This document shows, piece by piece, positions 7,467-56,553 of a stretch of 64,000 nt of DNA (position 1 is its first letter; every line of letters begins with the position of its first letter). Below the pieces are notes generated by a model that saw only the letters and a list, made by a program, of their open reading frames with translations, made no database searches and had not been told where the DNA came from. Position numbers and translations under genes: made by a program. The DNA lies in assembly GCF_003173355.1 (NCBI RefSeq), contig NZ_QGMY01000006.1:372001-436000 (forward strand), in the 5' to 3' direction. The DNA comes from Methanospirillum lacunae (GTDB taxonomy: Archaea > Halobacteriota > Methanomicrobia > Methanomicrobiales > Methanospirillaceae).

Positions 7467-7536
7467 CCTGAATATCAGAACCCTTTTTTCTACCACCGCT
7501 GGCAGGCTACATTAAGTCTGCAGGACAGTAAGTACT

Positions 7537-20943: not shown

Positions 20944-21040
20944 ATAAAATAATTTTACTCGTAACGTACATAGAAATATTGTTGAAACAAAATCGAAATT
21001 TCAATATACCCCTACTACTAATAAAAGATTGGGGGTAGTT

Positions 21041-22621: not shown

Positions 22622-22634
22622 AGGAAGTATAGAA

Positions 22635-37440: not shown

Positions 37441-37452
37441 TTCAGGTAAATA

Positions 37453-38565: not shown

Positions 38566-39680
38566 ATTTCTTTACCAGGGGTGATACTATAAATACAATA
38601 ACTTGTAACCGGTGTATTCTGGATAATACATTTCCGGATATATTCTTTGATGAAGAAGGGATATGTTCATACTGTCGGAAATACGAGAGTATGAACTTGA
38701 AATACTCAAGTAATGATGAAAAATCATCCATATTACCTAGTTTGATTCAGAAAGTGAAGAATGATGGAAGAAGTAAAGAGTACGATTCAATAATTGGCCT
38801 TAGTGGAGGACGTGACAGTACATACTGCCTGTATCTCCTTAAAGAATGGGGTCTCAATCCTCTCGCAGTTCATTTTGATAATAATATGGATTCAAAAATT
38901 GCTGTTCAGAATATTAAAAATGCTTGCAGAAAGCTGGATGTAGATCTCCACACATTTGTAGTTGATTGGGAGGAGTATAAGGATTTACAGATGGCATTTT
39001 TTAAAGCTTCAATCCCTGCTATAGATGCACCACTCGATCATGCAATTATTTCCACTCTTTTTCAATATGCATATGATAATAAAATCTCATATATCATTAG
39101 CGGAGGTTATTTCAGGGGGGAGGGCCCGATACCACGAGAATGGTCATGTATAGATGCAGATTTTATCAGAGATGTATATAAAAAGCATGGTAAACTTTCA
39201 CTTAAAAAATATCCAATAAGATCGTTTTTTCAGCAATTGCAATATCGTTTAAACGGCCTTACTACAATTCATCCCCTGAATTACCTGAACTTTGCCTATC
39301 GTGATGCAATGCAATTGATGGAGAGAGAACTAAATTGGCAATGGTATGGTGGACACCACTTCGAATCAATATTTACCAGGTGGGCTTTTGGATACTACCT
39401 CCCAACTAAATTTGGAATCGATAAGAGAGGGACGGATTTCTCTGCATTAATCCGATCGGGTCAGATGACAAAAGATGAAGCGATGGCAAAAATGAATGAT
39501 GTTTTCTACTCAGCTGATCAGGAGAAAGATGATCGACGATATATAATGAATAAACTTGAAATATCTGATTCAATGATGGATGATATACTTTCAGCGCCAC
39601 CACGTAAAAACTCGGATTATGCTCATAGTTCACAGTACATCCGCATCATCCGCAATCTTATCGGACCGAAACAAATTTGA
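38559..39680 (+). CDS. wbpG: N-acetyl sugar amidotransferase (WbpG-like)
   Basis: 373 residues from TTG 38559, or 363 from a possible ATA at 38589. Two CxxC pairs at the N-terminus (CNRC...CSYC) form a zinc site. The PP-loop ATP motif is IIGLSGGRDSTYCLYLL, followed by FDNNMDSKIAVQNIKNACR. WbpG with HisH2 and HisF2 converts an acetamido into an acetamidino group on a sugar (P. aeruginosa O5; a similar set modifies the archaellin glycan in Methanococcus maripaludis). The strong ribosome site AGGGGTGAT (38577-38585) points to a start at ATA 38589; the in-frame TTG has no ribosome site. Confidence 0.9.
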   Translation: MLNFFTRGDTINTITCNRCILDNTFPDIFFDEEGICSYCRKYESMNLKYSSNDEKSSILPSLIQKVKNDGRSKEYDSIIGLSGGRDSTYCLYLLKEWGLNPLAVHFDNNMDSKIAVQNIKNACRKLDVDLHTFVVDWEEYKDLQMAFFKASIPAIDAPLDHAIISTLFQYAYDNKISYIISGGYFRGEGPIPREWSCIDADFIRDVYKKHGKLSLKKYPIRSFFQQLQYRLNGLTTIHPLNYLNFAYRDAMQLMERELNWQWYGGHHFESIFTRWAFGYYLPTKFGIDKRGTDFSALIRSGQMTKDEAMAKMNDVFYSADQEKDDRRYIMNKLEISDSMMDDILSAPPRKNSDYAHSSQYIRIIRNLIGPKQI

Positions 39681-39683
39681 TTT

Positions 39684-40292
39684 ATGATTCTTGTTCTAGA
39701 TTACGGACTTGGGAATGTACATTCTATTGCAGCAAAGTTCGTTCAAATGGGAGAAGAAGTTCAGATATCATCATCGATAGAATCCATTGAAGCTGCAGAT
39801 CGGATTATTCTTCCAGGAGTGGGAAATTTTGGCACCGGGGCTAAAAATCTGTCAAATCTTGAGATCTGTGGTTTACTGAGGAGGCGTATCATACATGAAA
39901 AGGTGCCAATTCTTGGAATATGTCTTGGTATGCATTTACTGACACAAAGAAGTGAGGAGGGAAACGGAGACGGACTAGGCCTCATTGAAGGAGAAACAAA
40001 ACGATTTAGATTTGAAAATAACATTCTCCCTCTTCCCCATATGGGTTGGAATGAAGTTCGCATTAGAAATAATTCTCCTCTCTTCGACTCGATTCCAGAC
40101 AACAGCAGATTTTATTTCGTTCATTCGTTTCATCCAATATGTGTCGTATGTTCTGATGTAATCGCGACAACGAATTACGGATATGATTTTTCATCTGTCA
40201 TAGGGCGGGATCTCGTGTGGGGTGTTCAGTTCCATCCGGAAAAAAGTCATAAACAGGGAAAGCAACTCATGAAAAATTTTGCAAGGCTCTGA
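39684..40292 (+). CDS. hisH: Glutamine amidotransferase, HisH-like (amidine-sugar type)
   Basis: 202 residues of the class I glutaminase fold. ILGICLGMHLL carries the nucleophile cysteine (about residue 78). The C-terminal GVQFHPEKSHKQG holds the catalytic His and Glu. GVGNFGTGA near residue 52 is the HisH oxyanion loop. It would release ammonia from glutamine and channel it to the HisF-like partner. Its position between wbpG and a HisF-like gene, not with other his genes, assigns it to sugar amidination rather than histidine synthesis. Three bases separate it from wbpG. Confidence 0.9.
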   Translation: MILVLDYGLGNVHSIAAKFVQMGEEVQISSSIESIEAADRIILPGVGNFGTGAKNLSNLEICGLLRRRIIHEKVPILGICLGMHLLTQRSEEGNGDGLGLIEGETKRFRFENNILPLPHMGWNEVRIRNNSPLFDSIPDNSRFYFVHSFHPICVVCSDVIATTNYGYDFSSVIGRDLVWGVQFHPEKSHKQGKQLMKNFARL

Positions 40293-40296
40293 TTTG

Positions 40297-41067
40297 ATGC
40301 TCCAAAAGCGTGTAATCCCATGTCTGCTTTTAAAGGATGGTCTTTTTGTCAAGACAATCCAGTTCAAGAACCCAAATCATATCAGCGAACCTATTTACGC
40401 CATTAAAATTTTTAATGACTATGAAGTAGATGAGCTGATGATTCTTGATATCATGGCATCCCGAACAGATACATCCAATATTCCATTAGATCTCATCTCT
40501 AAGATTTCTGATGAAAGTTGGATGCCAATTACCTACGGGGGAGGAGTTCGCTCACTTGAGGATATGCATCAGTTGTTTCGGTCGGGTGTTGAAAAGGTCT
40601 GTATTTCCTCTTATGCAATTAAATATCCGGATTTTATTACAAATGCTGCACGAGAATTCGGATCTCAGAGTATTGTAGTCTCAATTGATGTCAGAAGACG
40701 GGTGAATGGTTCGTACAACGTCTGGACTCATGGAGGGACTGAAGAGACCAATTTAGAGCCATTACAATGTGCAGAAATAATTGCAGAAGCAGGAGCAGGC
40801 GAGATCATCATCCACTCTATTGATAATGATGGGATGATGTCGGGATATGATATTAATCTGATTCGAAAGATCACTGATCGGGTCAGAATACCGGTTATAG
40901 GTCTCGGGGGTGCCGGAAGTTATGATGATATTAAAAAGGTTATACATGATGGAGGTGCTTCAGCAGCAGCGGCAGGAAGCATATTTGTATATTTCGGGAG
41001 AAAAAAGGCAGTTTTAATTAATTATCCGGATCGGGAAGAAATAAACATGATATTAAGCGGTACTTGA
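40297..41067 (+). CDS. hisF: HisF-like amidation protein (WbuZ/HisF2 type)
   Basis: 256 residues from ATG 40297 (a TTG frame start at 40279 would overlap hisH). The TIM barrel resembles HisF, but the catalytic Asp11 of true HisF (CLDVKDG) is replaced by Leu (CLLLKDG), while the second Asp (VVSIDVRR) is kept. Loss of Asp11 argues against imidazole-glycerol-phosphate synthesis and fits the glycan-amidation paralogues (HisF2, WbuZ). It probably provides the ammonia tunnel from HisH to WbpG. It is the last gene of the plus-strand run. Confidence 0.9.
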   Translation: MLQKRVIPCLLLKDGLFVKTIQFKNPNHISEPIYAIKIFNDYEVDELMILDIMASRTDTSNIPLDLISKISDESWMPITYGGGVRSLEDMHQLFRSGVEKVCISSYAIKYPDFITNAAREFGSQSIVVSIDVRRRVNGSYNVWTHGGTEETNLEPLQCAEIIAEAGAGEIIIHSIDNDGMMSGYDINLIRKITDRVRIPVIGLGGAGSYDDIKKVIHDGGASAAAAGSIFVYFGRKKAVLINYPDREEINMILSGT

Positions 41068-42086: not shown

Positions 42087-43673
42087 TTACTGGTTATTCT
42101 CCTTTAATGTAAGATGGCATGAAATTCCTGCTTCTTTAAACAAATTGTTTAATGCAATATTAGAATCGACAAAATTGACATTCAGTATTTTTTTCAAATC
42201 TTCAAAATCCGAAATCGGGTGCTCAATAGAACTAATTAATTCCTCTGAAGAATCTGCATAAGAAAAATTTCCGGATTGAATGAATTTATACATATTAACG
42301 AATCCCACATTGTGAATTATTGTCGTAGGTTTTTCAAAAGCGGCTGCTTCAAAACTTACTGTTGACATATAACTAACATGGTGATCTACCTTTTCCAGAA
42401 GTGGATAAAGGGGGTAAGTGTTCGTTTTTTCTATTTCCACATTAACAATACCATTACTAGAGAAAAAATTCAAAAAGTCATAGAGATTTGATTTAAGAAG
42501 TGGATGAAGACGAATGAGCCACATCCATCGGCCAGAAGTTTTTTTTATTGCATCAAGCAGATGTGGAAGAATCGGAGGGTTTGTATAATCTACTGTTACG
42601 AGGATAATTTTTTCATATGATGATAGTTCATTGAAAAAGAGATTGCATTCCGGATTAAAATGATTAAAATTACTATTTATCCATTTATACATCCAGAAAT
42701 GCCCTCCGATTATTACTTTGTGTTTGGAACAGTCTGACGGTATCCATTCCCTATGGACACGTGCAAAATATTCAGACCATACCCAAAAGAACTGTGGTAA
42801 TAGGTCGTAGCCCTCTTTTGGAGTTTTTGACCAGAATGAATACATGTAATGTATCTTCCCCTGACAACCATGCTGGACATCAACAGTCAGGATATTCATC
42901 TTTCTTGCTGCCAGAATGGCCCCCATCCATGCTACGTTATAGTATGTTGACATAAATACAATTTTAGGTTTTATCTGATGAAATGCATGACAGAAAAATC
43001 TACTATAGGTCAATAATGATGTTATCTTGTCAACAATAACCTCTTTTTCAAGACGAACAAGGCCATTAGTTTCTTGAGATATTACCTGATTAAGAATATC
43101 TATATTGATGGATTTCCAGGTTTTTACTTTGAAATATTTTTTTAGAATAATGAACTGAATGGGATAACCTTTTGGATTTACACCATGAGCAGGAATATAA
43201 TATGAATTCTCATTATGCCTGCCACAATCGTATAAAATTTTTTTCACTTTAATATTTGCAGGTATCTGTTGAATAAGTGGATCAAATTCAGCACTATATT
43301 TTTTGTCATTTAAAATTTCCCGATGATCACCATCCAATGTCAGAAAAAGGCAATCTGTCCGGGTACCTGAAATTTTTTTGATCCCCCTACATCTAAAAAG
43401 ACACTCATGGAAAATTTTTTCCCACAGAACATAAAAACTTTTTATTTTTTTCCACAAATTTGAAGGTTTGCCTTTTGTTTTAATAACGCTCTCTGATTTC
43501 TCAGTTTTATTAAAATTAAATTTTTCCTGATTAATCAATTGTTCACGGATCTCAAGTCTAATCAGAGGCCAATAATTTACCCCAAAAATGATTAGGGAAT
43601 TTGTATCATAGGCATCCTCAATACTTTTTATTATTGCAACGATTTTTTTGTCAGGAATTGTCCAGGCAGGCAT
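42087..43673 (-). CDS. Probable GT-B glycosyltransferase, family not recognised
   Basis: 528 residues. Central and C-terminal parts look like a GT-B fold of the capsule/CDP-glycerol transferase type: IVFMSTYYNVAWMGAILAARKMNILTVDVQHGCQG; WMWLIRLHPLLKSN (the RLHP motif); and VDHHVSYMSTVSFEAAAFEKPTTIIHNVG resembling the sugar-nucleotide site. The first about 200 residues match nothing I know. It is followed within five bases upstream by the SpsG-like gene, so it may transfer the nonulosonic sugar made by this cluster. No signal peptide or membrane helix is evident. Confidence 0.6.
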   Translation of the reverse strand: MPAWTIPDKKIVAIIKSIEDAYDTNSLIIFGVNYWPLIRLEIREQLINQEKFNFNKTEKSESVIKTKGKPSNLWKKIKSFYVLWEKIFHECLFRCRGIKKISGTRTDCLFLTLDGDHREILNDKKYSAEFDPLIQQIPANIKVKKILYDCGRHNENSYYIPAHGVNPKGYPIQFIILKKYFKVKTWKSINIDILNQVISQETNGLVRLEKEVIVDKITSLLTYSRFFCHAFHQIKPKIVFMSTYYNVAWMGAILAARKMNILTVDVQHGCQGKIHYMYSFWSKTPKEGYDLLPQFFWVWSEYFARVHREWIPSDCSKHKVIIGGHFWMYKWINSNFNHFNPECNLFFNELSSYEKIILVTVDYTNPPILPHLLDAIKKTSGRWMWLIRLHPLLKSNLYDFLNFFSSNGIVNVEIEKTNTYPLYPLLEKVDHHVSYMSTVSFEAAAFEKPTTIIHNVGFVNMYKFIQSGNFSYADSSEELISSIEHPISDFEDLKKILNVNFVDSNIALNNLFKEAGISCHLTLKENNQ

Positions 43674-43678: not shown

Positions 43679-44692
43679 TTAATGTAGTGCGATAATGTCC
43701 AGAATTCGGGAAATTCCCTTACCATCAATTATTTTCTTTGCAGATTCAGACATTTTTTTTCGTAACTCAAAATTATTCAGGTATAGTTCCATAGTTTTAT
43801 CCAGTTTATCCGGAGTTTCTTCAGATTTCCAAATTCCCAGATTAACTGATCCGGTCATCCTGGAATACTCATTTGCAGTTGAACTTTCATGATCAATTGA
43901 GGGGATAATTACCACGGGTAATCCGAGATATGAACATTCAAACAGTGTTCTACCGGCTGCAATTATTGCAATATCTGCATTTGCCAGAATATCAATAAAA
44001 TTTTGTGGATCTTTGTATAACGTCACGTTTGAGATTCCATTACATAATTGAGCAATATCCTGATAATGTTGGAAGGCAGGACCCATTATTACATGATAGT
44101 GAAGAGAAGCCTGAAGAGGCAATTTTGAGAGAATTTTGATCGTTAATCCAGCGGGGTCCGATCCTCCCATCGAAATAACGACATTTTTAACTTCTTCTCT
44201 AATTATCGGTTTTTTAACTACCAGGTAGTCCCGAGGAAGAAGGAAATATTCAGGTCCTGAAAACAATTTCGTTTCTTTACCAACATTATCATACTGAACA
44301 AATTCAGAGACAAATGAATCATTGATTATACAGGAAGGATCACCCTTGACCAGACCCTTAATATCAAAGACAATTAGATCTATTTTATTTTTCCGGGCAT
44401 ATTTGGTGAAATCAGGATAGTTAAATTCTGGTAAATCAAATATTATCTTATCAGGGTTGACTCGTTCACAATATTCAAGAAGATATCTGGAGCAATCCAT
44501 CCCAATAGGGATTGTAGATACCATCCATCCATTATCCTGTACATATTGTACACCATCAGAATAATCCTGCATTAAAAAGGTTATATTATATTTTTGACGA
44601 AGCTCGGTTGCCAGGTGAAGAGTTCGTTTCACATGTCCCATTGATACTCCCCACACATTCCCTCCATCAACCCGGAAAATTAGATTCTTCAT
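43679..44692 (-). CDS. SpsG/PseG-like nucleotide-sugar hydrolase or transferase
   Basis: 337 residues from ATG 44692. The start IFRVDGGNVWGVSMGHVKRTLHLA aligns with PseG's FRVDASxxIGxGHxxRxxxLA; the histidine matches the catalytic His of PseG. The second half shows a GT28-like donor site (VVISMGGSDPAGLTIKIL; ADIAIIAAGRTLFECSYLGLPVVIIP). PseG removes UDP from UDP-2,4-diacetamido-2,4,6-trideoxy-altrose on the way to pseudaminic acid. Its neighbour NeuB supports a nonulosonic pathway. No PseB, PseC or PseH lies in the window, so its substrate may differ. Confidence 0.8.
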   Translation of the reverse strand: MKNLIFRVDGGNVWGVSMGHVKRTLHLATELRQKYNITFLMQDYSDGVQYVQDNGWMVSTIPIGMDCSRYLLEYCERVNPDKIIFDLPEFNYPDFTKYARKNKIDLIVFDIKGLVKGDPSCIINDSFVSEFVQYDNVGKETKLFSGPEYFLLPRDYLVVKKPIIREEVKNVVISMGGSDPAGLTIKILSKLPLQASLHYHVIMGPAFQHYQDIAQLCNGISNVTLYKDPQNFIDILANADIAIIAAGRTLFECSYLGLPVVIIPSIDHESSTANEYSRMTGSVNLGIWKSEETPDKLDKTMELYLNNFELRKKMSESAKKIIDGKGISRILDIIALH

Positions 44693-44697
44693 AGTGA

Positions 44698-45891
44698 TTA
44701 GCACTTCTTCTGAAAAACCAAAATGACATTTCCTGCATCTTCTTCTGACAGGGTTGATGTTTTCTCTGATTTGATAGTCTCATCAATTGCCATATAAATT
44801 GGAAGAGTGCTCGTAATTGAGGGATAATAACCACGATATTCCAGATCCATAAATAACGCAAACAATTTTCCGGTAAAAAAATGATGTTCTATGAGGTGAA
44901 AACCATATTTCTCCCCGGTTTCCTTCCACTCTTCAATAGTAAACAAATTTCTTCCAGTGGCATAATACTCATTATCTGACTTTAGCGGTATTCCTCCACG
45001 ATAGGGATTTTCGGTTGTTTCTCTCCAGGTTTTATAATTAAGGGCCCATTTTTTTGAGATGAACGATCGGTAACGGACACCCGGTAAAAGATCAAACACG
45101 TATTTTGAGTACGTGTCCATCACCAGAAATCCTCCAGGCTTCAGGATTCTATATAACTCTTTAAACCAGATATCAAGAAGGGATATATGATCAATAATGT
45201 GGACCATGTATACACTTTGGAATGCATTTGAGGAGAATGGGAGAGATGAAATTGAACCACCAACATAATGATGAATAACCCGATACATCTCTCCAGATGT
45301 ATTGTGGAAATTATTCATGAAATACTCACAACCAAAGGTTACATTCTTTTTGTCACGAAAAATCATGTTTGTTGTTTCACATGAGCCGCATCCAATCTCC
45401 AATGAAGGTTCAGAAATAAATGAACCCATCTTGCTAAAAGCACTAATTTCACCTCCTTTGAGCAACAGATTAAAATAATTATTCCATCCATAGTAAAGTG
45501 CTCTTTGGACGTCATTGCTATAAGGAGTCCCGGTAATCCACCTATACCAATTATGAATAAATGTCCGCGGCTTTTTAATCCAGAAGAGAACACTGATGAT
45601 AAAATATAAAAATTCACTCAGAATTACATGAAAAACACTGATCCTACGATATTTAAAGGGATTTTTTTGATTGCCTGCCTTTTGTTCCAATCCAAGGAAC
45701 TGATGACTCAAAGGATGAATCTCATCATGATGCATTAGTGCAGGTATATCATGGGAAATAGGAAATATTGTGTTACAATTGTTACATGTTATCCGGTTCA
45801 AATGACCATCATATTGTAATTTTTGTTCAATGTGACAGACAGGACATCTCAGATAAGTATCACAGATCTCCTGGGAAAGATTAATCGTCAT
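44698..45891 (-). CDS. SAM-dependent methyltransferase with N-terminal zinc ribbon
   Basis: 397 residues. A Trm112-like zinc ribbon at the N-terminus (CPVCHIEQKL...ITCNNCNTIFPISHDIPALM) precedes a class I methyltransferase: EPSLEIGCGSCETTNMIF is motif I, SSLPFSSNAFQSVYMVHIIDHISLLDIWFKELYRILKPGGFLVMDTYS covers motifs II and III. A hydrophobic insert at about residues 88-105 may be membrane-associated. Such ribbon-methyltransferase fusions are common in polysaccharide loci. Probable sugar O- or N-methylation. Confidence 0.85.
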   Translation of the reverse strand: MTINLSQEICDTYLRCPVCHIEQKLQYDGHLNRITCNNCNTIFPISHDIPALMHHDEIHPLSHQFLGLEQKAGNQKNPFKYRRISVFHVILSEFLYFIISVLFWIKKPRTFIHNWYRWITGTPYSNDVQRALYYGWNNYFNLLLKGGEISAFSKMGSFISEPSLEIGCGSCETTNMIFRDKKNVTFGCEYFMNNFHNTSGEMYRVIHHYVGGSISSLPFSSNAFQSVYMVHIIDHISLLDIWFKELYRILKPGGFLVMDTYSKYVFDLLPGVRYRSFISKKWALNYKTWRETTENPYRGGIPLKSDNEYYATGRNLFTIEEWKETGEKYGFHLIEHHFFTGKLFALFMDLEYRGYYPSITSTLPIYMAIDETIKSEKTSTLSEEDAGNVILVFQKKC

Positions 45892-45904: not shown

Positions 45905-46915
45905 TTAATATAGATCGTCAATAAAAATTGGATCCATTTTGTTAACTTTTTTATTCAAAACGCGGTTTTTCATCAAATCCCAATCAGTCACATTGCAATT
46001 ATGATGCGAAGGAGCATAGAATAAAACATGGTTTTCTGTGAGCACTGTTCCCTGTTCTAACGGTCCAGAGGCATAAATTCCACGACGTTTGAATTTCCGG
46101 GGTTCTTTTTCTTCCGGTGCAGGAATTTTTCTTCCATGACCCATCGCAGACTCAATACCACGAATATTTTGAATAAATGTTTTCAATTCAGAGGGATCCA
46201 TTGAACACCGTTGATCCGGGCCTGGCAGGTTCTTATCAATTGTGAAATGTTTTTCAATCACATTTGCTCCGAGAGCAACTGCTGCTAATGGAATATGGAT
46301 TCCCTCTGTATGATCAGAAAAACCAACAGGACAATCCAGCACTCTCTTCAATGTCTGAATAACCCGCAAATTACATGAATGATCGGCAGCAGGATAACAC
46401 GAAACACAATGAAGAACAATATATTGGGTGTTTCCCACTTCTTCAACCCATCTGACTGCCTGTAGTACTTCTTCCATGGTACTCATACCTGATGAAAGGA
46501 TGATGGGCTTCTGCAATTTCGCAACTGCCTGAATCAGATCTTTATAATTAAAATCCATGGCAGCAATTTTAATTAACGAGGGATTCTGTTGAGCAATGAA
46601 ATTCAGACTGGCAAACTCCTCCGGGGTAGAAAACAGGTTGATACCATGTTTTTTTGCAAAATCCCAAATCTCTTGTTCATTATCATGGGTAATTTCTGCG
46701 TCTATATCATAATTATATCCGGGATGGGAGGGATGAAGGAATTGATCGGTAATAAACGTCTGAATTTTCACTGCATCAGCCCCACTGCTCCATGCAGCAG
46801 CGATCATGTCTTTTGCAAGTGAAACATTCCCATTATGGTTTATTCCAATTTCTGCAATTATATATGCTGGATATCCATCTCCAACATGTCTTCCATTAAT
46901 TGTTATGGCATTCAT
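45905..46915 (-). CDS. neuB: NeuB-family nonulosonic acid synthase
   Basis: 336 residues. YIIAEIGINHNGNVSLAKDMI is the TIM-barrel N-terminus with the metal and PEP site. IILSSGMSTMEEV, VGFSDHTEGIHIPLAAVALGANVIEKHFT and LPGPDQRCSM are NeuB/PseI/LegI signatures. A C-terminal SAF (antifreeze-like) domain runs from about residue 280 (RRGIYASGPLEQGTVLTENHV). It condenses PEP with a six-carbon amino sugar to give a nine-carbon acidic sugar. The ATG at 46915 is preferred over one two codons earlier. Which of sialic, pseudaminic, legionaminic or a new acid is made cannot be told from sequence. Confidence 0.9.
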   Translation of the reverse strand: MNAITINGRHVGDGYPAYIIAEIGINHNGNVSLAKDMIAAAWSSGADAVKIQTFITDQFLHPSHPGYNYDIDAEITHDNEQEIWDFAKKHGINLFSTPEEFASLNFIAQQNPSLIKIAAMDFNYKDLIQAVAKLQKPIILSSGMSTMEEVLQAVRWVEEVGNTQYIVLHCVSCYPAADHSCNLRVIQTLKRVLDCPVGFSDHTEGIHIPLAAVALGANVIEKHFTIDKNLPGPDQRCSMDPSELKTFIQNIRGIESAMGHGRKIPAPEEKEPRKFKRRGIYASGPLEQGTVLTENHVLFYAPSHHNCNVTDWDLMKNRVLNKKVNKMDPIFIDDLY

Positions 46916-46930
46916 AATCATCGATAGATA

Positions 46931-48025
46931 TTAAAATAAATGGGTGTTTCGGAACAAAAAGGGATACGTAATTTTTTTTCGATGATTATACTGTTTATGT
47001 ACAATATCAATGATAACATGGTGAAAACATTCTATACCACCAGCATTTGAATCTAATTCATGAGATCCAATTGAATCTGATAAGTCATGGTATGTATAAC
47101 TAAAACCATCAGGTAATAATGTCAGCATGTGTTCATATAGAAAATCTATACCATTTATTATTGGACTTCGTGTTAAAATGTAGGCACGACCACTTTTTTT
47201 TAATAAATGAGGAATTTTATGAATAATTTCAATGGTGATACCAAGCCCATAAGGTTCACCACCATCTGAATCCAAAGGACCAGACACGACTTTTGGAAAA
47301 TGGATAAATGGAGGATTGGCTACAACAAGATCAAATAAATTATTGTTACATTCCTGAAATGATTTGTTGAAGAATTCACAATTTACTATCTCATGTAATT
47401 CAGCATTCATTTGAGCGAGATTGATAGAGGCAGGATTAAGATCAACGCCACAGATCCTAGTACAGTACCTGCTCATGACTAATGAGAGGATTCCTACTCC
47501 GCAACAAATATCTAATCCATTTTGCCCCCGAAATTTTCTTTTATCTAACTGATCCCTAATAAAATCAGCAAAAAAAAGAGAATCATAACTAAGATATGTA
47601 AATGCTGAGTCATTTCGGTCAAACCTTGAAGTAATTAGTAAGAAATCACGATACGGAACAATCCGGTACAAAAATCGAATCGAATTATTTCCTTCGACCT
47701 TTATCAGGCCTGACGTGATAGATTTTTCCAACCAATTTTTTCCTATAAAATTTATTTTTTGTGTTTCTACAACTTCGTTTAGAAACAGTATTTTACGAAG
47801 TAACCCTAATTCGCGATTAAATATAAATTTCAGGTATATATGTGGAAATAGGGATATTGAAAAGAGGTTACTCCGGCCGAAAATAAAATTGAAAATAATT
47901 TGGATTTCATTAATAAATGTAGATGTCTGAAAAGGATACTTTCTCAGTGGAAATTTAATAATGTTTTTATATTTTGTTTTATGAAGACAGTCGGATAATT
48001 CAGATACCTGATTTTTTATATTCAT
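46931..48025 (-). CDS. Methyltransferase with NPPF motif (N5-glutamine/adenine-type)
   Basis: 364 residues. The first about 150 match nothing recognised. NGLDICCGVGILSLVMSRYCTRICGVDLNPASINLAQMNAEL is the SAM-binding region. FDLVVANPPFIHFPKV holds the NPPF tetrad that in related enzymes orients an amino or amide nitrogen for methylation. It lies between the rSAM gene and neuB. The NPPF motif suggests N-methylation or a non-hydroxyl acceptor, unlike the other methyltransferases in this cluster. Possible target: an amino sugar nitrogen. Confidence 0.8.
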   Translation of the reverse strand: MNIKNQVSELSDCLHKTKYKNIIKFPLRKYPFQTSTFINEIQIIFNFIFGRSNLFSISLFPHIYLKFIFNRELGLLRKILFLNEVVETQKINFIGKNWLEKSITSGLIKVEGNNSIRFLYRIVPYRDFLLITSRFDRNDSAFTYLSYDSLFFADFIRDQLDKRKFRGQNGLDICCGVGILSLVMSRYCTRICGVDLNPASINLAQMNAELHEIVNCEFFNKSFQECNNNLFDLVVANPPFIHFPKVVSGPLDSDGGEPYGLGITIEIIHKIPHLLKKSGRAYILTRSPIINGIDFLYEHMLTLLPDGFSYTYHDLSDSIGSHELDSNAGGIECFHHVIIDIVHKQYNHRKKITYPFLFRNTHLF

Positions 48026-48107: not shown

Positions 48108-49361
48108 TCAAAGATTTTTCAGGTAACGATACCATTTTCTCAAAATTTCATCTGAATATTGAGTCAGATTAACGCTAATTTCATTCTGTAGTTTTAGATT
48201 TTCAATGTAATCTATTTCGTCATCAATAATGGATTTTTTAACAGCATATTCGTAGAAAGTGGTTCTTGGATAAAGAGTCATAAAGAAAACTTGATAATTA
48301 CTTTTAAACCCATTTCGAATTAAAAATTGTTTTGTCAATTCTATGGTTTCAGGATTCTCGCTGATACTTCCAACAATAAAGGTTGCATTGTATTGAATTC
48401 CATAATCCTTGAGCCATTTCAGTATCCTTTCCACCTTTTCCAGTTGAATATTTTTATTTAGTTCCTTTAAAATCTGAGGACTTCCTGACTCAATACCCAT
48501 ACTGATTCCAGAAAGGCCAGCATCTTTTAACATTTCAAGTAACTCTTCTGTTAAATGCTGAATGGAAGCCTGGAACCGAAATTTTATATGCAAAGGTTTA
48601 ACTTTCAAACAAAATTCTTCAATCCATTTTTTATTTGTAGTAAAATTATCATCTTCAAATGATACTTTTTCAAGACCGTATTTCGTTTTTATCATACGGA
48701 TATCTGCAATTACATCATCCACATTTCTATACCTGACATTATGGCCTGATATATGATAACAGTAATTACATCGATATGGACAACCTTTCGAGCAATACAT
48801 TTCAAAAGAGAGTCCCGATTCAATATAATATTTTATATATTTATCCATTGGAAAGAGATCATATGCTGGAGAAGGAGTTTTTGATATATCCGGAGGATTT
48901 AAGGGAGGTGTAAGAAAAATTGTCCCATTATTATTGTACTTTATTCCTTTTACTTGCGCTAGATTCCCTTTTTTTAATAATGAGTCTATGAGAGGGAGAA
49001 TAATTTCATCACCTTCTCCAATTACATAAATATCAGCATTTATCCGTTTTAATATCTCATCAGGGGCAGTAGTTGCTAGTCCTCCACCCACAATAATATA
49101 GGATTCAGGCCACTTTTTTTTGAGGAGATCACAATAATACCGGACTCGTTTATAGGTTGTGATCATACCGGTTAGTAATATTATTTCTGGTCTTGGAATG
49201 CAATTAAGAGACTCACTAGGGTTATCAGTTCTGTTCGCATCAAAATCAATGACACTTATGTCATATCCGGCATGTTTAACAATTGAAACGATCGTTGCAA
49301 TTCCAAGTGGAAAAGACAGACGATATTCATCATTCCATTGTGGATTAATTGCAAGAATCAT
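48108..49361 (-). CDS. B12-binding-domain radical SAM protein
   Basis: 417 residues. The N-terminal cobalamin-binding-like Rossmann domain (about 1-150: SIVKHAGYDISVIDFDANR; YIIVGGGLATTAPDEILKRI) is followed by the radical SAM barrel with CPYRCNYCYHISG (CX3CX2C, near residue 193). Later blocks are LEKVSFEDDNFTTNKKW and GISMGIESGSPQILKELNK. This class methylates unactivated carbons or rearranges carbon skeletons. Its stop-start ATGA overlap with the SPASM gene upstream links the two in translation. Substrate unknown; a sugar or isoprenoid intermediate of the cluster is likely. Confidence 0.88.
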   Translation of the reverse strand: MILAINPQWNDEYRLSFPLGIATIVSIVKHAGYDISVIDFDANRTDNPSESLNCIPRPEIILLTGMITTYKRVRYYCDLLKKKWPESYIIVGGGLATTAPDEILKRINADIYVIGEGDEIILPLIDSLLKKGNLAQVKGIKYNNNGTIFLTPPLNPPDISKTPSPAYDLFPMDKYIKYYIESGLSFEMYCSKGCPYRCNYCYHISGHNVRYRNVDDVIADIRMIKTKYGLEKVSFEDDNFTTNKKWIEEFCLKVKPLHIKFRFQASIQHLTEELLEMLKDAGLSGISMGIESGSPQILKELNKNIQLEKVERILKWLKDYGIQYNATFIVGSISENPETIELTKQFLIRNGFKSNYQVFFMTLYPRTTFYEYAVKKSIIDDEIDYIENLKLQNEISVNLTQYSDEILRKWYRYLKNL

Positions 49362-50392
49362 TGCAATCCTTTATTATGAGGATTCACTTTTTCCCCTTCT
49401 GGTTTATCTCCCAGTTGTTCAGTTGAAGGACGATGACATTTTTTACAGCATGGTATGGATAAACGTTTACCATTCAATTGGGCATTTCGAAAATCCTCCA
49501 TCTCTTTACCAAGCCATACCTCTTTAATAGTTTGCTTATTTAAATCCCCAATTTTTGTATGGAGGTTCCAGTCAGAAATACAGAGGGGAATTTCCCCATT
49601 CCAGGTAACGGTTATTCGTTGCCAGGGATATTGACAGATGAAATCGCCATCTTGCGGCACTTCCCTAAGTGAATAATCATTTTCAGGATCAAAATTAATT
49701 TTGTCTGTAATGTCTTTAAAATGAGAGTAGAAGGCTATTGGATCTTCTTTGATATATGTCCAGATCGCCTGAATTTTTAAACGGGGATATCCTCCACCAA
49801 TACGGTTTTTTAACTCATAAAATTTTTTTATCTTACTGGTTATTTCCCTGAATGTTGAAGGGTTCCTGAGTTTGTTGTAGTGCTCTTCAAGTCCATCTAC
49901 AGATATCGTAAGATAATCAAGTCCTGCGTTTATAAGGCCTTCAGCAATATCCCCTTCCAGGAGGCGACCGTTAGAAATGAATGACACCTCTTTAATGCCC
50001 TTCTTTTTTGCATATTCGACCATTTCAACGATCCGGGGATTGAGTGTTGATTCTCCTCTCCAACTTAATCGGATTGAATAAAGGTCATTTTCCACACACT
50101 CATCAATTCCTTTTTTGTAGAGATTAAAATCCATATCCCCGTAATTTTTTTGCTCTATATGAGGGCGAAAACACATGGGGCAATTCAGGTTACACCTAAA
50201 ACTCGCCTCAAAATCGACATGAAGGGGAAAAGGAGAGACATAATGCCATTTTGGATAACTAAACCATTGATATCGGTTGACACAATAATCTTTAAAATAT
50301 CGCCTCTGTTCCTCCCATGATCGTTCTCTTTCATACGAATCAAGTGAAAATTGATGGTGATTTATTTTCATTTCCTGGTCTTTATTTTTCAT
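49358..50392 (-). CDS. Radical SAM/SPASM-domain enzyme
   Basis: 344 residues. C67-x3-C71-x2-C74 (FRCNLNCPMCFRP) binds the catalytic 4Fe-4S cluster. YLTISVDGLEEHYNKLRNPSTF is a typical later strand. A SPASM-type tail holds further cysteines (ICQYPWQRITVTWNGEIPLCISDWN; CCKKCHRPS) for auxiliary clusters. SPASM enzymes modify peptides or small molecules, including sugars (dehydrogenation, epimerisation). It sits next to a SpsF-like cytidylyltransferase and overlaps the B12-type enzyme, so a sugar substrate is the best guess. Confidence 0.88.
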   Translation of the reverse strand: MKNKDQEMKINHHQFSLDSYERERSWEEQRRYFKDYCVNRYQWFSYPKWHYVSPFPLHVDFEASFRCNLNCPMCFRPHIEQKNYGDMDFNLYKKGIDECVENDLYSIRLSWRGESTLNPRIVEMVEYAKKKGIKEVSFISNGRLLEGDIAEGLINAGLDYLTISVDGLEEHYNKLRNPSTFREITSKIKKFYELKNRIGGGYPRLKIQAIWTYIKEDPIAFYSHFKDITDKINFDPENDYSLREVPQDGDFICQYPWQRITVTWNGEIPLCISDWNLHTKIGDLNKQTIKEVWLGKEMEDFRNAQLNGKRLSIPCCKKCHRPSTEQLGDKPEGEKVNPHNKGLQ

Positions 50393-50403: not shown

Positions 50404-51138
50404 TTAAGCAACATAACATTTTTTTTCGGATTCATGCTCAAAATTGGTCAGAATATTTATCAGATCGATAAAATTGAAATTAAATGGCAAACCACCACAG
50501 TTGAAAAGTTTTGAGATTCTTAAATAGTCCTCTTTTGTATCAATTGAAAGTTTAAATCGGGAATAATCATGCCCCATGTTATGGTTAAAATACCGAATTC
50601 GGTACTTATCATCTCTTCTTAAAAAAAAATAATTTATATGTTCTCTCTCATCAATAGAAGTGGCATTTTTTGCGGCTTCTTCAAGAATTTGAGAATTAAA
50701 AATTTCTGTATCAAGACCTTCGGGGAAATTAGTATATTGGCGGTTACTCAGATAATCGATGAAATGTAAATTATCAATATAATACCTAACCATCTCATCA
50801 ATGACCCCGGGAACAATTAAAGGGCAATCTGCAGTGATCCGAACAACAATATCGAGTGAAAAATTTTTTGCGGCATTATAATACCGATCCAGGCAATCGG
50901 ACTCACTACCTCGAAAATACAAATAGTTATTATTTTCCAGATATTGACTTAATGTATCATCTTTTGAATTTTCAGATGTTGCTACAATTATTTTATCCAC
51001 CATGCAACATTCAGAAAGTCGTTTAAGGATATATCCTAGAATACCACATCCATTTGTTAAATCCATAAGTACTTTTCCAGGTAATCTGGTTGAACCCATC
51101 CTGGCTTGAACAATTACCCCAATACAAGGTTTAGACAT
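50404..51138 (-). CDS. spsF: SpsF-like cytidylyltransferase
   Basis: 244 residues. IGVIVQARMGSTRLPGKVLMDL is the SpsF/NeuA-type nucleotide-binding start (R-x-GSTRLPGK). DKIIVATSENSKDDTL and VVRITADCPLIVP with its metal-binding Asp are further family blocks. Such enzymes activate nonulosonic or related sugars with CMP. Genes of this type often occur with NeuB and SpsG homologues, as here. The chosen ATG 51138 gives a normal-length protein. It lies between a SPASM enzyme and the GSA-type aminotransferase. Confidence 0.87.
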   Translation of the reverse strand: MSKPCIGVIVQARMGSTRLPGKVLMDLTNGCGILGYILKRLSECCMVDKIIVATSENSKDDTLSQYLENNNYLYFRGSESDCLDRYYNAAKNFSLDIVVRITADCPLIVPGVIDEMVRYYIDNLHFIDYLSNRQYTNFPEGLDTEIFNSQILEEAAKNATSIDEREHINYFFLRRDDKYRIRYFNHNMGHDYSRFKLSIDTKEDYLRISKLFNCGGLPFNFNFIDLINILTNFEHESEKKCYVA

Positions 51139-51165: not shown

Positions 51166-52461
51166 TTAATAACGCTTGAATACTTCTTCAGCGATTGGCC
51201 CTTTTAATAATGATGCTGTTGTCTTGTTATTGATTGATTTATCAATTAATTTGAACACTTCTGAAGCCATATCCAGAGAAAACTGAATATCTTTCTTTGT
51301 ATGTGAATATGAGATAAAATGTCCATATCCCAGAAACACTCCGCGGGCAAATGATTCCTGCCTGAATAAAGTCTGGATCAGTTTACCGGACACCTGATCG
51401 GTATCATTAAAAACCAAAAAAGTCTTGTGAGGAAGACCTTCGCAGCTCCCTGAAATTTGAGTTTCATTAATTAGTGCTCCAAGACCCCTTTGCAATTCCT
51501 TACCAAGTTTATGAAGATGCCCGGTTACATTTTCATCCGAAATTATATTGAGAGTCTCAATTGCTGCAGTTATGGCTAACAGATCTCCACCATATGTTGA
51601 GGATATAAATACTTTATCTTCTACTTCATCTAGGATTTCTTTTTTCCCAACAAGCGCTGAAATAGGATATCCATTCCCCATTGCTTTCCCAAATGCACTG
51701 ATATCCGGAGTTACGGAAAAATATTCCTGAGCACCTCCGGGGCTTAAACGAAATCCTGTGATGATCTCATCAAAAATTAATAGTGCACCATGCTCTTTCG
51801 CAACTTTCGCGACCTTCTTAAGAAACTGTTTTTTGGGAGCATACATCCCGACCGGTTCAAGGATTATTGCTGCTATCTGATCAGGAAAACGCTCAATAAT
51901 ATTTAAAAGTGAATCAATATCATTGTAAGAGAATTCATGTATGAGAGATTGTGATGTTGTTTCTACCCCGACATTTCTGGTAGTTCTGCACACAGTCCAA
52001 TCATGCCATCCATGGTATCCACAGACAGCTACATGTTCCCTTTGAGTATACGCCCGGGCTATCCTCACCGCTGCAGACATAGCTTCAGATCCACTCTTCA
52101 GAAATTTGACTTTTTGAGCAGATGGGATCATTGCACAGAGTAATTCAGCTAATTCAATTTCTTTGGGACTAGACAGACTAAATAATGAGCCATTCTTCAT
52201 CTGCTTTTTAACTGCCCGATCCACCCTTGGATAGGCATGTCCTAACACTATCGGACCTAGAGCGAGAGGATAATCGATATACCGGTTACCATCACAATCC
52301 CAGAAATATGCCCCTTTAGCCTTCTCAACAAAGATCGGACATGCCCCAAAAGCAATATGCAATGGTGACTTGGAAAGTGTCTGAACACCATTGAGAATCA
52401 CCTGAGGTGCTTTTTTCCACAATGCCATCGACTTTTTATATCGTTTTTCTGGTGAAATCAT
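51166..52461 (-). CDS. Class III aminotransferase (glutamate-1-semialdehyde aminomutase-like)
   Basis: 431 residues from ATG 52461, which overlaps the stop of the radical SAM gene (ATGA); the longer frame from 52503 is not needed. FLKSGSEAMSAAVRIARAYTQ is the PLP phosphate block, LLIFDEIITGFRLSPGG the cofactor Asp, and ISAFGKAMGNGYP carries the PLP lysine. HemL moves an amino group within glutamate semialdehyde, but this copy is embedded in a sugar cluster with SpsF and NeuB and coupled to an rSAM enzyme. Transfer of an amino group to a keto-sugar made by that enzyme is inferred. Other heme genes are absent here. Confidence 0.87.
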   Translation of the reverse strand: MISPEKRYKKSMALWKKAPQVILNGVQTLSKSPLHIAFGACPIFVEKAKGAYFWDCDGNRYIDYPLALGPIVLGHAYPRVDRAVKKQMKNGSLFSLSSPKEIELAELLCAMIPSAQKVKFLKSGSEAMSAAVRIARAYTQREHVAVCGYHGWHDWTVCRTTRNVGVETTSQSLIHEFSYNDIDSLLNIIERFPDQIAAIILEPVGMYAPKKQFLKKVAKVAKEHGALLIFDEIITGFRLSPGGAQEYFSVTPDISAFGKAMGNGYPISALVGKKEILDEVEDKVFISSTYGGDLLAITAAIETLNIISDENVTGHLHKLGKELQRGLGALINETQISGSCEGLPHKTFLVFNDTDQVSGKLIQTLFRQESFARGVFLGYGHFISYSHTKKDIQFSLDMASEVFKLIDKSINNKTTASLLKGPIAEEVFKRY

Positions 52462-53474
52462 GATTCTTTTTCTTCGTAAAAGGTTTTTTCTTTTTTCAGC
52501 CAATCAGTTAAATCACCGATTGAAACCCAGACAACGCAATCTTTACATACATCGTATTTGTGGTATTTTTTTTCAATCTGTGATCTTCGTGCATCCTTGA
52601 TTTTCGACCCATTCCATATTTCATGGAGAGACTGAGAATTTGCATCTCCGACATTTATTTCCGTATCCCAGTCTACAGAGCAAACAGTTACTTCACCATT
52701 CCAACACACAACCAAGGAATACCACATAATAAGACATGGATATCGAACATCAGATGACTCATCGGTGACTTTTAAATCGGGAATTGCACCGCTCCAGTTG
52801 TGAACTCCCGTAATCTGAACAAGATCGGCGATATTCTCCCACTTATTATAGAATTCTTCGATCTCCCCGGGTTGGATCTCGTCAAACTCCATCATCTTAA
52901 CTCTTAAAAACGGCTTATCCAGTCCCCTCTGATTACGGATTTTTAAAAATAATTTGACATTATTTTCCACCTCACCTAACCGGTTAAATCCTTTATGTTT
53001 AGAATATGTTTCAGAACGGGCTGCATCTATACTGACCGTAATATCATCAAGGCCGGAGTCTAAAATTTCTTCTATAGTTTCTTTATTCCAGCAAAGAGCA
53101 TTGGTATTCAGGTGTATTGTTTTAGCGACCTTTTTTTCCTTTGCATAACGAATCATATCAAGAAATCGTGGGTGTAAAAATGATTCGCCATCTTTGTGGA
53201 AATTTAACATGATAAGGGGATCATACCTTGCAGCCTCGTTTATTATTTTGGTGTACAACTCCCAGCTCATATCTCCAATCCCTTTTTTGGCTTTCATCCG
53301 TGGGCAGTATACACATCGTAAGTTGCATCGGTTTGTGGGTTCGATATTTAAAATATTAGGAAATTTGTTATTAACTACCTTCATTATTGTCGGTTGGTTA
53401 AGACAAGTTAACGTACCCTGTACAAAATCCTCATGTAATGTCCGATAATGATCTGGGTTTGGACCTCGCCCCAT
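52458..53474 (-). CDS. Radical SAM/SPASM-domain enzyme coupled to the aminotransferase
   Basis: 338 residues. C50-x3-C54-x2-C57 (NRCNLRCVYCPRM) binds the 4Fe-4S cluster. DDITVSIDAARSETYSKHKGFNRL follows. The C-terminal cysteines (LIMWYSLVVCWNGEVTVCSVDWDT; KYDVCKDCVVW) form a SPASM region. GGAGTGAT lies three bases before ATG 53474. The four-base overlap with the PLP aminotransferase argues for a two-step conversion, oxidation to a ketone followed by transamination, or an aminomutase-type reaction. It differs clearly from the SPASM paralogue at 49358. Confidence 0.88.
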   Translation of the reverse strand: MGRGPNPDHYRTLHEDFVQGTLTCLNQPTIMKVVNNKFPNILNIEPTNRCNLRCVYCPRMKAKKGIGDMSWELYTKIINEAARYDPLIMLNFHKDGESFLHPRFLDMIRYAKEKKVAKTIHLNTNALCWNKETIEEILDSGLDDITVSIDAARSETYSKHKGFNRLGEVENNVKLFLKIRNQRGLDKPFLRVKMMEFDEIQPGEIEEFYNKWENIADLVQITGVHNWSGAIPDLKVTDESSDVRYPCLIMWYSLVVCWNGEVTVCSVDWDTEINVGDANSQSLHEIWNGSKIKDARRSQIEKKYHKYDVCKDCVVWVSIGDLTDWLKKEKTFYEEKES

Positions 53475-53489: not shown

Positions 53490-55193
53490 TCAGATACATT
53501 TCGGTTTTACTACCCGGAACTTCCCAATATATAACTCATGAATACCAGTTCCAAAAAAAGTTCTTATCGCTTCTTTTGGTGTACAGACGACAGGTTCATC
53601 ATTATCATTGAATGACGTATTCAAAACAAGAGGTATACCGGTTATTTTCCTGAATTCATTGATTAAATTCCAGTAAAGCTCATTCGTTTCCTTAGTAACG
53701 GTTTGTAACCTTCCAGTCCCATCATTGTGAACAACAGCAGGGATGAGAGATTTCATACTCTCACGCACCGGATATACCATCTGCATGAAATTACTATCTG
53801 ATGCTGATTCAAAGAACTCATACTGGAATTCTTTTAAAACTGATGGTGCAAAAGGACGGAACCACTCCCGATGTTTTATTAGCAGATTGATCTTTTCTTT
53901 CATATGTGGATCTCGTGGATCTGCAATCAGGGATCGATTTCCTAACGCCCTCTGACCTGACTCCATACGTCCCTGAAACCAGGCGATAACTTTACCTTCG
54001 GATATTGCTTTGGCAGCAGTTCGCTCAGGATGATCTATGTATTCATAATCGATCAAGGCATCATCAAGTGCATTCCGAATTTCTTCGTCAGAAAATCCAG
54101 GGCCCCAATAATCATGATCCATGACAAAATTGCGTTTATTTTGAAGAATATGATTCCAATAATAGAAACATGCACCGATCGAGGTTCCGGCATCATCGGC
54201 ACTTGGCTGAACCCAGACATTCGAAAACGGTGATTCAAGCAATATACGCCCGTTCATTTTACTATTCATGGCAACACCTCCAGAAAGGCATATTGTATCC
54301 AATCCGGTTATTTCGGCAAGGTAATTGCACATTTCAAGTACTACATCTTCTACACGTTTCTGAAAACTTGCAGCAATATCCATATGCCGTTGATCAATTT
54401 CCTGATGTGAATATCGCTCATTACCAAATACCTCAATAAACTGGTCTGAATATCGTCTCGGACTCCAGAAATAAAATGTAAAGAAGTCAAGATTAAATCT
54501 CAGTTCACCACGATTTTTATCGAAATGGATAATCTCAGCAAATTTATCATAATAGGTCTGATTACCATAAGCAGCGAGCCCCATCACTTTCCATTCATCA
54601 CTATTTGCGCGAAATCCCAGGAATTGGGTGATAGCTGCATATACCTGACCCATCGAATGTGGGAATTGTGTTTTTCCAAGAGATTTCAACTGGTTTTTTT
54701 CTCCGATAAAAAACTGATGAGTGATATCATCCCCATATGCATCGATGGTAAGAATGGCTGCTTTCTCATATGGTGATGTAAAAAAAGAACCTGCTGCATG
54801 GGCGTGGTGGTGGGGAATGAAATGGATATTTATATTACTATCATTTAATCCCAGAGTCTCATGTATAAACCTGATTTTTTTATTGTTTTTATCACCACCG
54901 ATATGCCTCAGGAGATTATTCGGAATATAATGAAGGAAATCTTTGTGATATCGGATTGCTGCTGCAGATTCCTGGGGTTCTATCTCATGACCCGGATTCC
55001 ATGCAAAGACGATATGATCAATATCAGTCAGACTAATCCCTGCATATCGGAGACAATAATCAACTGCCTGCTGAGGATAAGCATCCGAAAATTTTATCCT
55101 GTCAAATCGTTCTTCCCGAACTGCTGCAAGTAATTTCCCATCTTTTATTAATGCTGCAGCTGAATTGGAATCATTTAATCCCAGAATGTACAT
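53490..55193 (-). CDS. Carbamoyltransferase (NodU/CmcH family)
   Basis: 567 residues. The N-terminal Kae1-like ATPase half begins MYILGLNDSNSAAALIKDGKLLAAVREERF and contains IHFIPHHHAHAAGSFFTSPY with metal-binding histidines and AILTIDAYGDD. LSGGVAMNSKMNG is the nucleotide motif. The C-terminal part has SGQRALGNRSLIADPR and NTSFNDNDEPVVCTPKEAI, the carbamoyl-transfer region. It moves a carbamoyl group from carbamoyl phosphate onto a hydroxyl of a sugar or other metabolite. Length matches NodU. It is followed upstream by a WbqC-like gene, a pairing common in glycan decoration. Confidence 0.92.
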   Translation of the reverse strand: MYILGLNDSNSAAALIKDGKLLAAVREERFDRIKFSDAYPQQAVDYCLRYAGISLTDIDHIVFAWNPGHEIEPQESAAAIRYHKDFLHYIPNNLLRHIGGDKNNKKIRFIHETLGLNDSNINIHFIPHHHAHAAGSFFTSPYEKAAILTIDAYGDDITHQFFIGEKNQLKSLGKTQFPHSMGQVYAAITQFLGFRANSDEWKVMGLAAYGNQTYYDKFAEIIHFDKNRGELRFNLDFFTFYFWSPRRYSDQFIEVFGNERYSHQEIDQRHMDIAASFQKRVEDVVLEMCNYLAEITGLDTICLSGGVAMNSKMNGRILLESPFSNVWVQPSADDAGTSIGACFYYWNHILQNKRNFVMDHDYWGPGFSDEEIRNALDDALIDYEYIDHPERTAAKAISEGKVIAWFQGRMESGQRALGNRSLIADPRDPHMKEKINLLIKHREWFRPFAPSVLKEFQYEFFESASDSNFMQMVYPVRESMKSLIPAVVHNDGTGRLQTVTKETNELYWNLINEFRKITGIPLVLNTSFNDNDEPVVCTPKEAIRTFFGTGIHELYIGKFRVVKPKCI

Positions 55194-55212: not shown

Positions 55213-55917
55213 TCACGGATTTGTAGCCAGATTCATAATAATCCTCAGACTTTCAGGTCCTTTATTAAACAGCAAATCAAGGGTAGACAGACCCGGTATG
55301 AACTCATCACATAACTGCTTATAATAAGAACATTGATAGTCGATGTATTCAATAATAATTCCTTTTTTAGCAAATTCTTCTTCTTGAAGATAGTCTCTTC
55401 CTGAAGGCCCGCATAAATAAACATCTGCTTTATTTAGCAGACAGATTTGTAAAATCAAATCAGAACCCTTGTATGAAGACACATTCATATTCGAGGAAAA
55501 TTTCATCGGAGTATGTATCCCAAGATGTTTTCGGAAAAAATTGATAAACATCATATTTAATGAGATTAATTTTGTGTACTCAATATCATATATTAAAGCG
55601 TTCAATTCATCGAAGTAATCATTGAAAAAGGGAGCTTTACCATAGTAATGAATTAATGTTTTTATGAATTTTCTTTTCCATTCTTTCGTTTCATCAATTT
55701 CTACGTTATTTATTGCCTGAACATGTTGGTCTTTGCCTTTTACAGGTACTGTAAGAAACTGAATATCCCCTCCAGGAGTAATCAATCGGTTCCTGTTCTC
55801 GAAATAACGTTTTTTAAATTGAACATGGTCAAAAACTACATACTCATCAGCCAGAGCCATTTTATTAAAAAAACCCATCCATGGCATAAATTCCGGTTGA
55901 TGAATAGCTATTTTCAT
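55213..55917 (-). CDS. WbqC-like family protein
   Basis: 234 residues matching the WbqC family: MKIAIHQPEFMPWMGFFNKMALADEYVVFDHVQFKKRYFENRNRL and FLTVPVKGKDQ near the start, YLCGPSGRDYL later. Members occur in O-antigen and surface-glycan loci and have been suggested to add amino acids or acyl groups to amino sugars; biochemistry is thin. GGAGAT lies seven bases before the ATG. It forms a tight unit with the PIG-L deacetylase (six-base gap) and the carbamoyltransferase. Confidence 0.87.
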   Translation of the reverse strand: MKIAIHQPEFMPWMGFFNKMALADEYVVFDHVQFKKRYFENRNRLITPGGDIQFLTVPVKGKDQHVQAINNVEIDETKEWKRKFIKTLIHYYGKAPFFNDYFDELNALIYDIEYTKLISLNMMFINFFRKHLGIHTPMKFSSNMNVSSYKGSDLILQICLLNKADVYLCGPSGRDYLQEEEFAKKGIIIEYIDYQCSYYKQLCDEFIPGLSTLDLLFNKGPESLRIIMNLATNP

Positions 55918-55923: not shown

Positions 55924-56553
55924 TTATCTCCAGATCATCTTGACCATCTGAAAAGTCTCAGCATAATCAACGCCAATCTTAGCCCCGGCTGCTGAATTTT
56001 GTTTTATTACAAAGTCAATCCACGAGTAATTTACAGCTTTCATTTCTGATTCAAAAACCGCAATTAATTCCTTTTTCTGCTCAATACAATCAGATATATC
56101 CACATAATATTTATCTTCGGCTCCATTATCCATAATGTACCAGTTACTCCGATACAAGAAAACCGAATCACATTTTCTGGCAGCTCTTATTGCCACATAC
56201 CCGACTGCTGCATGATCACTATGATTATCTGATGAACGATGAACATAGATTCTATCAGGCTTAATACGATTAATAACCTCATCCAGTTCAAGGACCAATT
56301 TTTCATTCGGTACCAGAACCAGAGGTTCTTTTTCAAGACACAAAAATTGGGCTTTTAAAATCGATGCACTCCTTTTACCCTCCTCCAGAGCAGTCTCTTT
56401 ATGGCGGACCAGATTTTTATTGGTACTGGTGTATCCAGAGTGTGTTACAACTGTTATGTAGATCTCATCCCCTGCATTCCTATGACGGAGTAATGTACCC
56501 CCACAACCCAGTTCTACATCATCAGCATGTGCACCAATTGCTAATACTTTCAT
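55924..56553 (-). CDS. PIG-L/LmbE family deacetylase
   Basis: 209 residues. VLAIGAHADDVELGCGGTLL holds the zinc ligands of the AHxDD motif. RIYVHRSSDNHSDHAAVGYVAIRAARK holds the second zinc motif (HxDH). These enzymes remove N-acetyl groups from GlcNAc-containing substrates, as in GPI, bacillithiol and mycothiol synthesis. Here it would free an amino group for re-modification, perhaps by the WbqC-like protein next to it. The ATG overlaps the Wzt gene stop (ATGA), so it is coupled to the export genes. Confidence 0.9.
   Translation of the reverse strand: MKVLAIGAHADDVELGCGGTLLRHRNAGDEIYITVVTHSGYTSTNKNLVRHKETALEEGKRSASILKAQFLCLEKEPLVLVPNEKLVLELDEVINRIKPDRIYVHRSSDNHSDHAAVGYVAIRAARKCDSVFLYRSNWYIMDNGAEDKYYVDISDCIEQKKELIAVFESEMKAVNYSWIDFVIKQNSAAGAKIGVDYAETFQMVKMIWR

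Follow-up and report, generated by a model that had tools for sequence, protein, structure and literature searches.

A BtrN-like radical SAM enzyme recurrently paired with a class III aminotransferase, including in a nonulosonate operon of Methanospirillum lacunae

The analysed stretch of Methanospirillum lacunae DNA, 64,000 nucleotides in length and hereafter termed the window, carries two adjacent genes on its minus strand. One encodes a twitch-type radical SAM enzyme of 338 amino acids (rSAM1; positions 52458 to 53474) with the motif CNLRCVYC (C50, C54 and C57), and the other a class III aminotransferase of the PRK06209 type consisting of 431 amino acids (AT; positions 51166 to 52461) with the signature GYHGWHDW. 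The minus strand at their junction reads ...GAATCATGATTTC..., where the TGA stop codon of rSAM1 and the ATG start codon of AT share the tetranucleotide ATGA (positions 52461 to 52458), in accordance with the preliminary description of this DNA. The ATG at 52461 is the start of AT, and the TTG situated upstream at 52503 is merely the mechanical start of the open reading frame. Since 5 of the 15 junctions within the operon of the window overlap, the ATGA has little meaning by itself; it gains weight because the homologous junction in an operon from the planctomycete phylum (locus L237) overlaps by 4 nt as well, as GTGA. Both junctions were read directly from the sequence.

The aminotransferase gene is followed, as the preliminary description had noted, by an SpsF-like gene (CTP_transf_3; positions 50404 to 51138), whose product is 56% identical in L237, is fused to AT in other genomes, and is a probable CMP-sugar synthetase. 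Further along the minus strand lie genes for a second twitch radical SAM enzyme, rSAM2 (49358 to 50392; 80% identical in L237), a radical SAM enzyme with a B12-binding domain, recognised by domain match (48108 to 49361; not conserved in L237), a methyltransferase-like protein (46931 to 48025; 41%), a nonulosonate synthase of the NeuB/PseI family (45905 to 46921; 67%) and a PseG-like UDP-sugar hydrolase (43679 to 44704; 43%), with a second methyltransferase gene between the latter two. Upstream of rSAM1, on the same strand, are a NodU-like carbamoyltransferase (53490 to 55193; 76%), a WbqC-like protein (55213 to 55917; 59%) and a PIG-L type deacetylase (55924 to 56553; 66%), as well as an ABC exporter. 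The locus is a nonulosonate (NulO) locus.

Several other features of the window and its relatives were recorded. The rSAM2 protein falls into a clade of its own (support 100/99) that is tied to loci with NeuB, SpsF, WbqC and PIG-L, often together with PseG and DegT, and this gene set occurs in archaea and on Rhizobium plasmids (L218, L219, L220, L179 and L213); it looks like a second radical SAM pathway for NulOs, more widespread than the rSAM1-AT pair. A 528-aa protein without a Pfam match (42087 to 43673), which has a weak relative in the archaeal NulO locus L175 (11233 to 12897), is a possible NulO transferase. The row of Gfo/Idh, acyltransferase, DegT, amidotransferase-like, HisH-like and HisF-like genes at 35564 to 41067 presumably resembles the acetamidino-sugar set WbpB-D-E plus WbpG-HisH2-HisF2. 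Moreover, three open reading frames near the glycan locus read as archaellin-like (21029 to 21595, 22611 to 23138 and 23661 to 24164), and the glycan of the locus may decorate the archaellum.

The rSAM1 protein contains the CxxxCxxC motif and the PF04055 domain of the radical SAM superfamily. Its auxiliary cysteines C247, C265, C310 and C313, together with G260, are invariant in an alignment of 14 homologues and fit the twitch pattern CX9-15GX4C plus CX2C of the BtrN/MoaA type, which holds one auxiliary cluster. The CX2CX5CX3C block of full SPASM domains, which hold two auxiliary clusters, is absent from rSAM1, and the second cluster is missing because no cysteine follows C313. The Pfam assignment of the C-terminal domain to SPASM (PF13186) is thus a match only as the one-cluster type, and the SPASM label used in the preliminary description has to be replaced by "twitch", the domain sharing with BtrN a set of four auxiliary cysteines. 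A related case is the spiro-SPASM family (TIGR04321), whose C-terminal half matches rSAM1 over its full length, but rSAM1 scores 111 against a cut-off of 250. The N-terminal half of spiro-SPASM matches the SpsF of the window weakly (2e-5), so this family may represent a fusion of a cytidylyltransferase-like protein with a radical SAM enzyme.

The best solved relative of rSAM1 by sequence is BtrN (E-value 5.8e-11), in an alignment that spans both domains and all four auxiliary cysteines. BtrN is also the best fold match (1.9e-11, at about 16% identity by fold alignment) of an rSAM1 model of moderate confidence (pLDDT 69, built from a four-row alignment); further fold matches include SkfB, SuiB, BlsE, DesII and EpeE. 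Sequence and modelled fold together support the assignment of rSAM1 to the BtrN-like twitch type, and by homology it is probably a dehydrogenase, or alcohol oxidase, of the BtrN type. BtrN offers a precedent for radical dehydrogenation followed by PLP-dependent transamination, as in the butirosin pathway its product is aminated by an aminotransferase of the DegT/StrS family. That pathway concerns a cyclitol substrate and an antibiotic, whereas in the window the partner is a class III aminotransferase and the setting a nonulosonate operon. The cyclitol alcohol 2-deoxy-scyllo-inosamine is oxidised by BtrN to the ketone in a two-electron step, and four cysteines ligate the auxiliary cluster of BtrN, in which it differs from MoaA (PMC9012708).

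The aminotransferase resembles HemL, as had been described: it matches TIGR00713 with 296 bits, is about 30-39% identical to HemL in sequence and belongs to the same fold type. Its structure model (pLDDT 90) has GSAM enzymes as nearest folds and best solved relatives. It would therefore be conceivable that AT is a second HemL and that the pair forms a side branch of tetrapyrrole synthesis leading to heme or F430; these GSAM relatives are what speaks for it. The score, however, lies far below the TIGR00713 cut-off of 527, which is exceeded by the HemL of the host genome itself (541 bits). Behind its GxHGxHD motif, this HemL has the loop GSGxxTxGxPxSxGVP, which AT lacks in the alignment; AT has a conserved C-terminal tail that is extra relative to HemL. 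There are no heme genes near AT, as had been stated earlier, and the true HemL is encoded on contig C16 beside hemB (porphobilinogen synthase) and hemC (hydroxymethylbilane synthase), so AT is not the only HemL-like protein available for heme or F430 synthesis. Furthermore, 120 related loci are of the NulO type and not of the heme type. These findings rule out AT as a HemL paralogue and leave the tetrapyrrole reading a practically negligible probability. The best family match of AT is instead PRK06209 (NF004856), aminotransferases of NulO loci, with 362 bits over the full length, although below the curated cut-off of 486; AT clearly passes the class III aminotransferase family PF00202 (202 bits against 30.5). 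K259, invariant in 19 sequences, is taken by alignment as the PLP lysine. The name "aminomutase" carried by the PRK06209 family finds no support in the contexts described here.

Genome and viral scans yielded at least 122 loci with relatives of AT, 120 of them readable. Of these 120 listed loci, 90 have NeuB and 72 have SpsF within six genes of AT. An SDR gene lies directly downstream of AT in 62, and the gene directly upstream encodes a transketolase subunit (50), an aldo-keto reductase (10) or a Gfo/Idh protein (9); in most loci an oxidoreductase borders AT. Most relatives occur without any radical SAM enzyme, and in none of the 120 loci, a set gathered by similarity to AT, does a radical SAM gene directly adjoin it. 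Open reading frames with the size of an SpsF::AT fusion are present in at least 16 loci, including an archaeal one (L009, 681 aa). At least 20 loci hold, besides AT, a pair of 4,6-dehydratase and DegT, so AT is most likely an additional aminotransferase. The earlier proposal that the amino group is placed beyond the reach of 4,6-dehydratase chemistry stands as probable on this coexistence. The idea that AT replaces PseC, to which PseB directly before AT in several viral loci had given rise, is weakened by the same loci; one locus that seemed free of DegT by the open reading frame filter (L144) proved to contain it by tblastn.

Two further arrangements were seen within this family. In about 50 loci of Bacteroidetes, Ignavibacteria and others (L016-L092 and L178), a conserved operon comprises SpsF, a split transketolase, class III AT, SDR, a HAD protein resembling KDN-9-phosphatase, and NeuB. 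Fusions of SpsF::AT size also lie on the viral contigs L108, L112, L114, L116, L118, L120, L121, L123-L125, L127 and L132, eight of which carry both PseB and DegT genes, which suggests that phages remodel the NulO glycans of their hosts.

Close relatives of rSAM1 were found in three other loci, and the four proteins form a clade with 100/99 support. The first, L237, came from a survey of 246 genomes in the phylum of Candidatus Brocadiaceae (Planctomycetota) and contains ten genes of the operon in the order of the window (PIG-L, WbqC, NodU, rSAM1, AT, SpsF, rSAM2, methyltransferase, NeuB, PseG) with 41-80% identity, among them rSAM1 with 66% and AT with 64%. Fourfold-degenerate sites match in 23-38% between the two operons, which is near random; since the proteins are nevertheless conserved, they are under strong constraint. 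Contamination is formally conceivable as the source of this match, as trpA and trpB, both present on the L237 contig, are uninformative as to bacteria or archaea. The second, L217, derives from a survey of 299 genomes in the phylum to which the Rhodospirillales locus L091 belongs (Pseudomonadota). Its rSAM1 relative (full-length, 43%, 7.7e-92) precedes an SpsF::AT fusion of 684 aa and is the only gene beside it, the pair being otherwise set among unrelated bacterial genes, e.g. Mg-ATPase and ccoG. The third, L225, is a viral contig found when the rSAM1 proteins of the window and L217 were used together as queries; scanning viral contigs with the window rSAM1 as sole query gave no match. It encodes an rSAM1 relative (46%) surrounded by class III AT, NeuB and SpsF-like genes, with AT three genes away. 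On the same contig, a B12-binding radical SAM gene is split into two adjacent open reading frames (6594 to 7956), possibly by a frameshift.

A class III aminotransferase of the AT family thus lies within 4 kb of rSAM1 in all four members of the clade, a small sample in which two (window and L237) come from one conserved operon. The aminotransferases of these loci do not form one clade (AU test, p = 0.00028 for the four and 0.00011 for three of them). The L217 protein groups in the tree with those of loci L028 and L035, and a tree calculated without the L237 row gives no settled placement of the window AT. Because the rSAM1 proteins are one clade and their aminotransferases are not, the pairing was formed more than once, and joint function is therefore favoured over co-inheritance. 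That the two genes are chance neighbours in a crowded polysaccharide locus would be in line with the frequent overlaps in the operon and with the absence of adjoining radical SAM genes from the 120 AT loci, but it is a very unlikely explanation of an aminotransferase in every rSAM1-clade locus and of two or more independent joinings. The impression that the pair was a singleton, drawn from those 120 loci, was overturned by L217, L225 and L237. Recurrence of this kind (AU p about 0.0003) supports rSAM1 and AT as a functional unit at the level of sequence comparison, and bears out the two-enzyme unit of the preliminary description, which had suggested a search for adjacent or fused pairs in other loci.

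Twitch radical SAM genes were also surveyed under relaxed settings; 9 of 65 directly adjoin an aminotransferase gene, and 7 of the 65 lie next to a DegT gene, figures that serve as support only because the survey has no proper control for locus composition. Distant twitch radical SAM genes directly adjoin DegT genes in L176, L177, L215, L138, L182, L187 and L194, with an overlap of 4 nt in L176 and L182. Pairs of radical SAM enzyme and aminotransferase may be common in surface-sugar loci.

We infer the dehydrogenation, the order of the steps, the level of the substrate and the aminated position as follows. Using SAM and its [4Fe-4S] clusters, rSAM1 would abstract a hydrogen atom from a carbon bearing a hydroxyl group and complete a two-electron oxidation to the ketone, as BtrN does; AT would then convert this ketone into an amine in a PLP-dependent reaction. 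The amine would be additional to those arising from dehydratase and DegT chemistry, and the most likely substrate would be a NulO or CMP-NulO kept close to SpsF, a stage to which the fusion of AT to SpsF points. The partner oxidoreductase of AT varies between loci (SDR, Gfo/Idh or aldo-keto reductase), so the BtrN-like rSAM1 can be seen to fill the oxidoreductase slot. Altogether, we consider it likely that rSAM1 and AT act one after the other in a NulO branch, dehydrogenating and then transaminating a nonulosonate intermediate. By analogy, C8 is the leading candidate for the aminated carbon. In Acinetobacter prophages, EpaA (a CTP_transf_3::aldo-keto reductase fusion) and EpaB (an SDR) alter C8 of pseudaminic acid to the 8-epi form (PMC12053666), and 8-amino-3,5,7,8,9-pentadeoxynonulosonic acid occurs in the LPS of Flexibacter maritimus (PMC3210612). 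As a NulO-remodelling module of two genes, a dehydrogenase and an SpsF-like fusion enzyme, EpaA/EpaB corresponds in layout, judged from the genes alone, to L217 (rSAM1 plus SpsF::AT) and to the window (rSAM1-AT-SpsF); it differs in lacking a radical SAM enzyme and in ending with epimerisation by the aldo-keto reductase rather than amination.

The pair could also act earlier, at the UDP-sugar stage, where rSAM1 would oxidise C4 of a UDP-HexNAc while keeping O6 and AT would form the 4-amine in place of PseB and PseC, after which PseG and NeuB would build a 5,7-diamino NulO retaining its 9-hydroxyl group. PseG and NeuB are present in the operon of the window as well as in its counterpart L237, and neither operon contains a dehydratase or a DegT gene; lacking a dehydratase of its own, the window operon leaves the precursor sugar uncertain. 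The host genome has, however, a second NulO locus on contig C10 (L172, 8984 to 14287) with a PseB-like protein, a PseC/LegC-like DegT, NeuB and PseF, the last scoring above its family cut-off, and this set could supply the precursor. Together with the SpsF::AT fusions, which suggest action on a NulO or CMP-NulO, and with the AT relatives that coexist with a full dehydratase and DegT set, it makes action on a UDP-sugar fairly unlikely.

The functional breadth of the twitch/SPASM enzymes, which include epimerases, deaminases and peptide-modifying enzymes, is a counterpoint to the dehydrogenase reading. rSAM1 might be an epimerase, a deaminase or another radical tailoring enzyme, with the ketone for AT made by an NAD(P) dehydrogenase encoded elsewhere, and two Gfo/Idh genes, at 35564 and 61780, are indeed present in the window. 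Both of these sit in WbpB-like sets on the opposite strand, though. rSAM1 has been joined with AT proteins of more than one lineage, the pair is not flanked by any further oxidoreductase gene, and in L217 rSAM1 is the sole gene beside SpsF::AT. A tailoring role is accordingly unlikely in our view. The actual partner of AT in the window operon could also be rSAM2. Dehydrogenation by rSAM1 followed by transamination by AT at the NulO level remains the reading that we prefer.

In a wider sense, rSAM1 and class III AT may form a cassette for an oxygen-independent route to NulOs with an extra amino group (e.g. 8-amino), shared as an operon or a two-gene module by methanogenic archaea, bacteria of the planctomycete and Pseudomonadota types and a viral contig, in which the radical enzyme replaces NAD(P) dehydrogenases; we put this forward tentatively, with doubt slightly outweighing confidence. 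Among open-access papers searched in full text, none was found that links radical SAM enzymes with NulO aminotransferases. For an aminotransferase encoded in the NulO locus of Leptospira, the role is given as "4, 13, or ?" (PMC3438082). If the proposal is true, it would establish a link between the chemistry of radical SAM enzymes and surface sugars of the sialic acid type, and would assign a function to a large family of aminotransferases that carry a HemL annotation in many NulO loci. Moreover, it would provide a gene-level source for NulOs of the 8-amino type, which have been described only chemically, and a substitute for NAD(P)-dependent oxidation that suits anaerobes.
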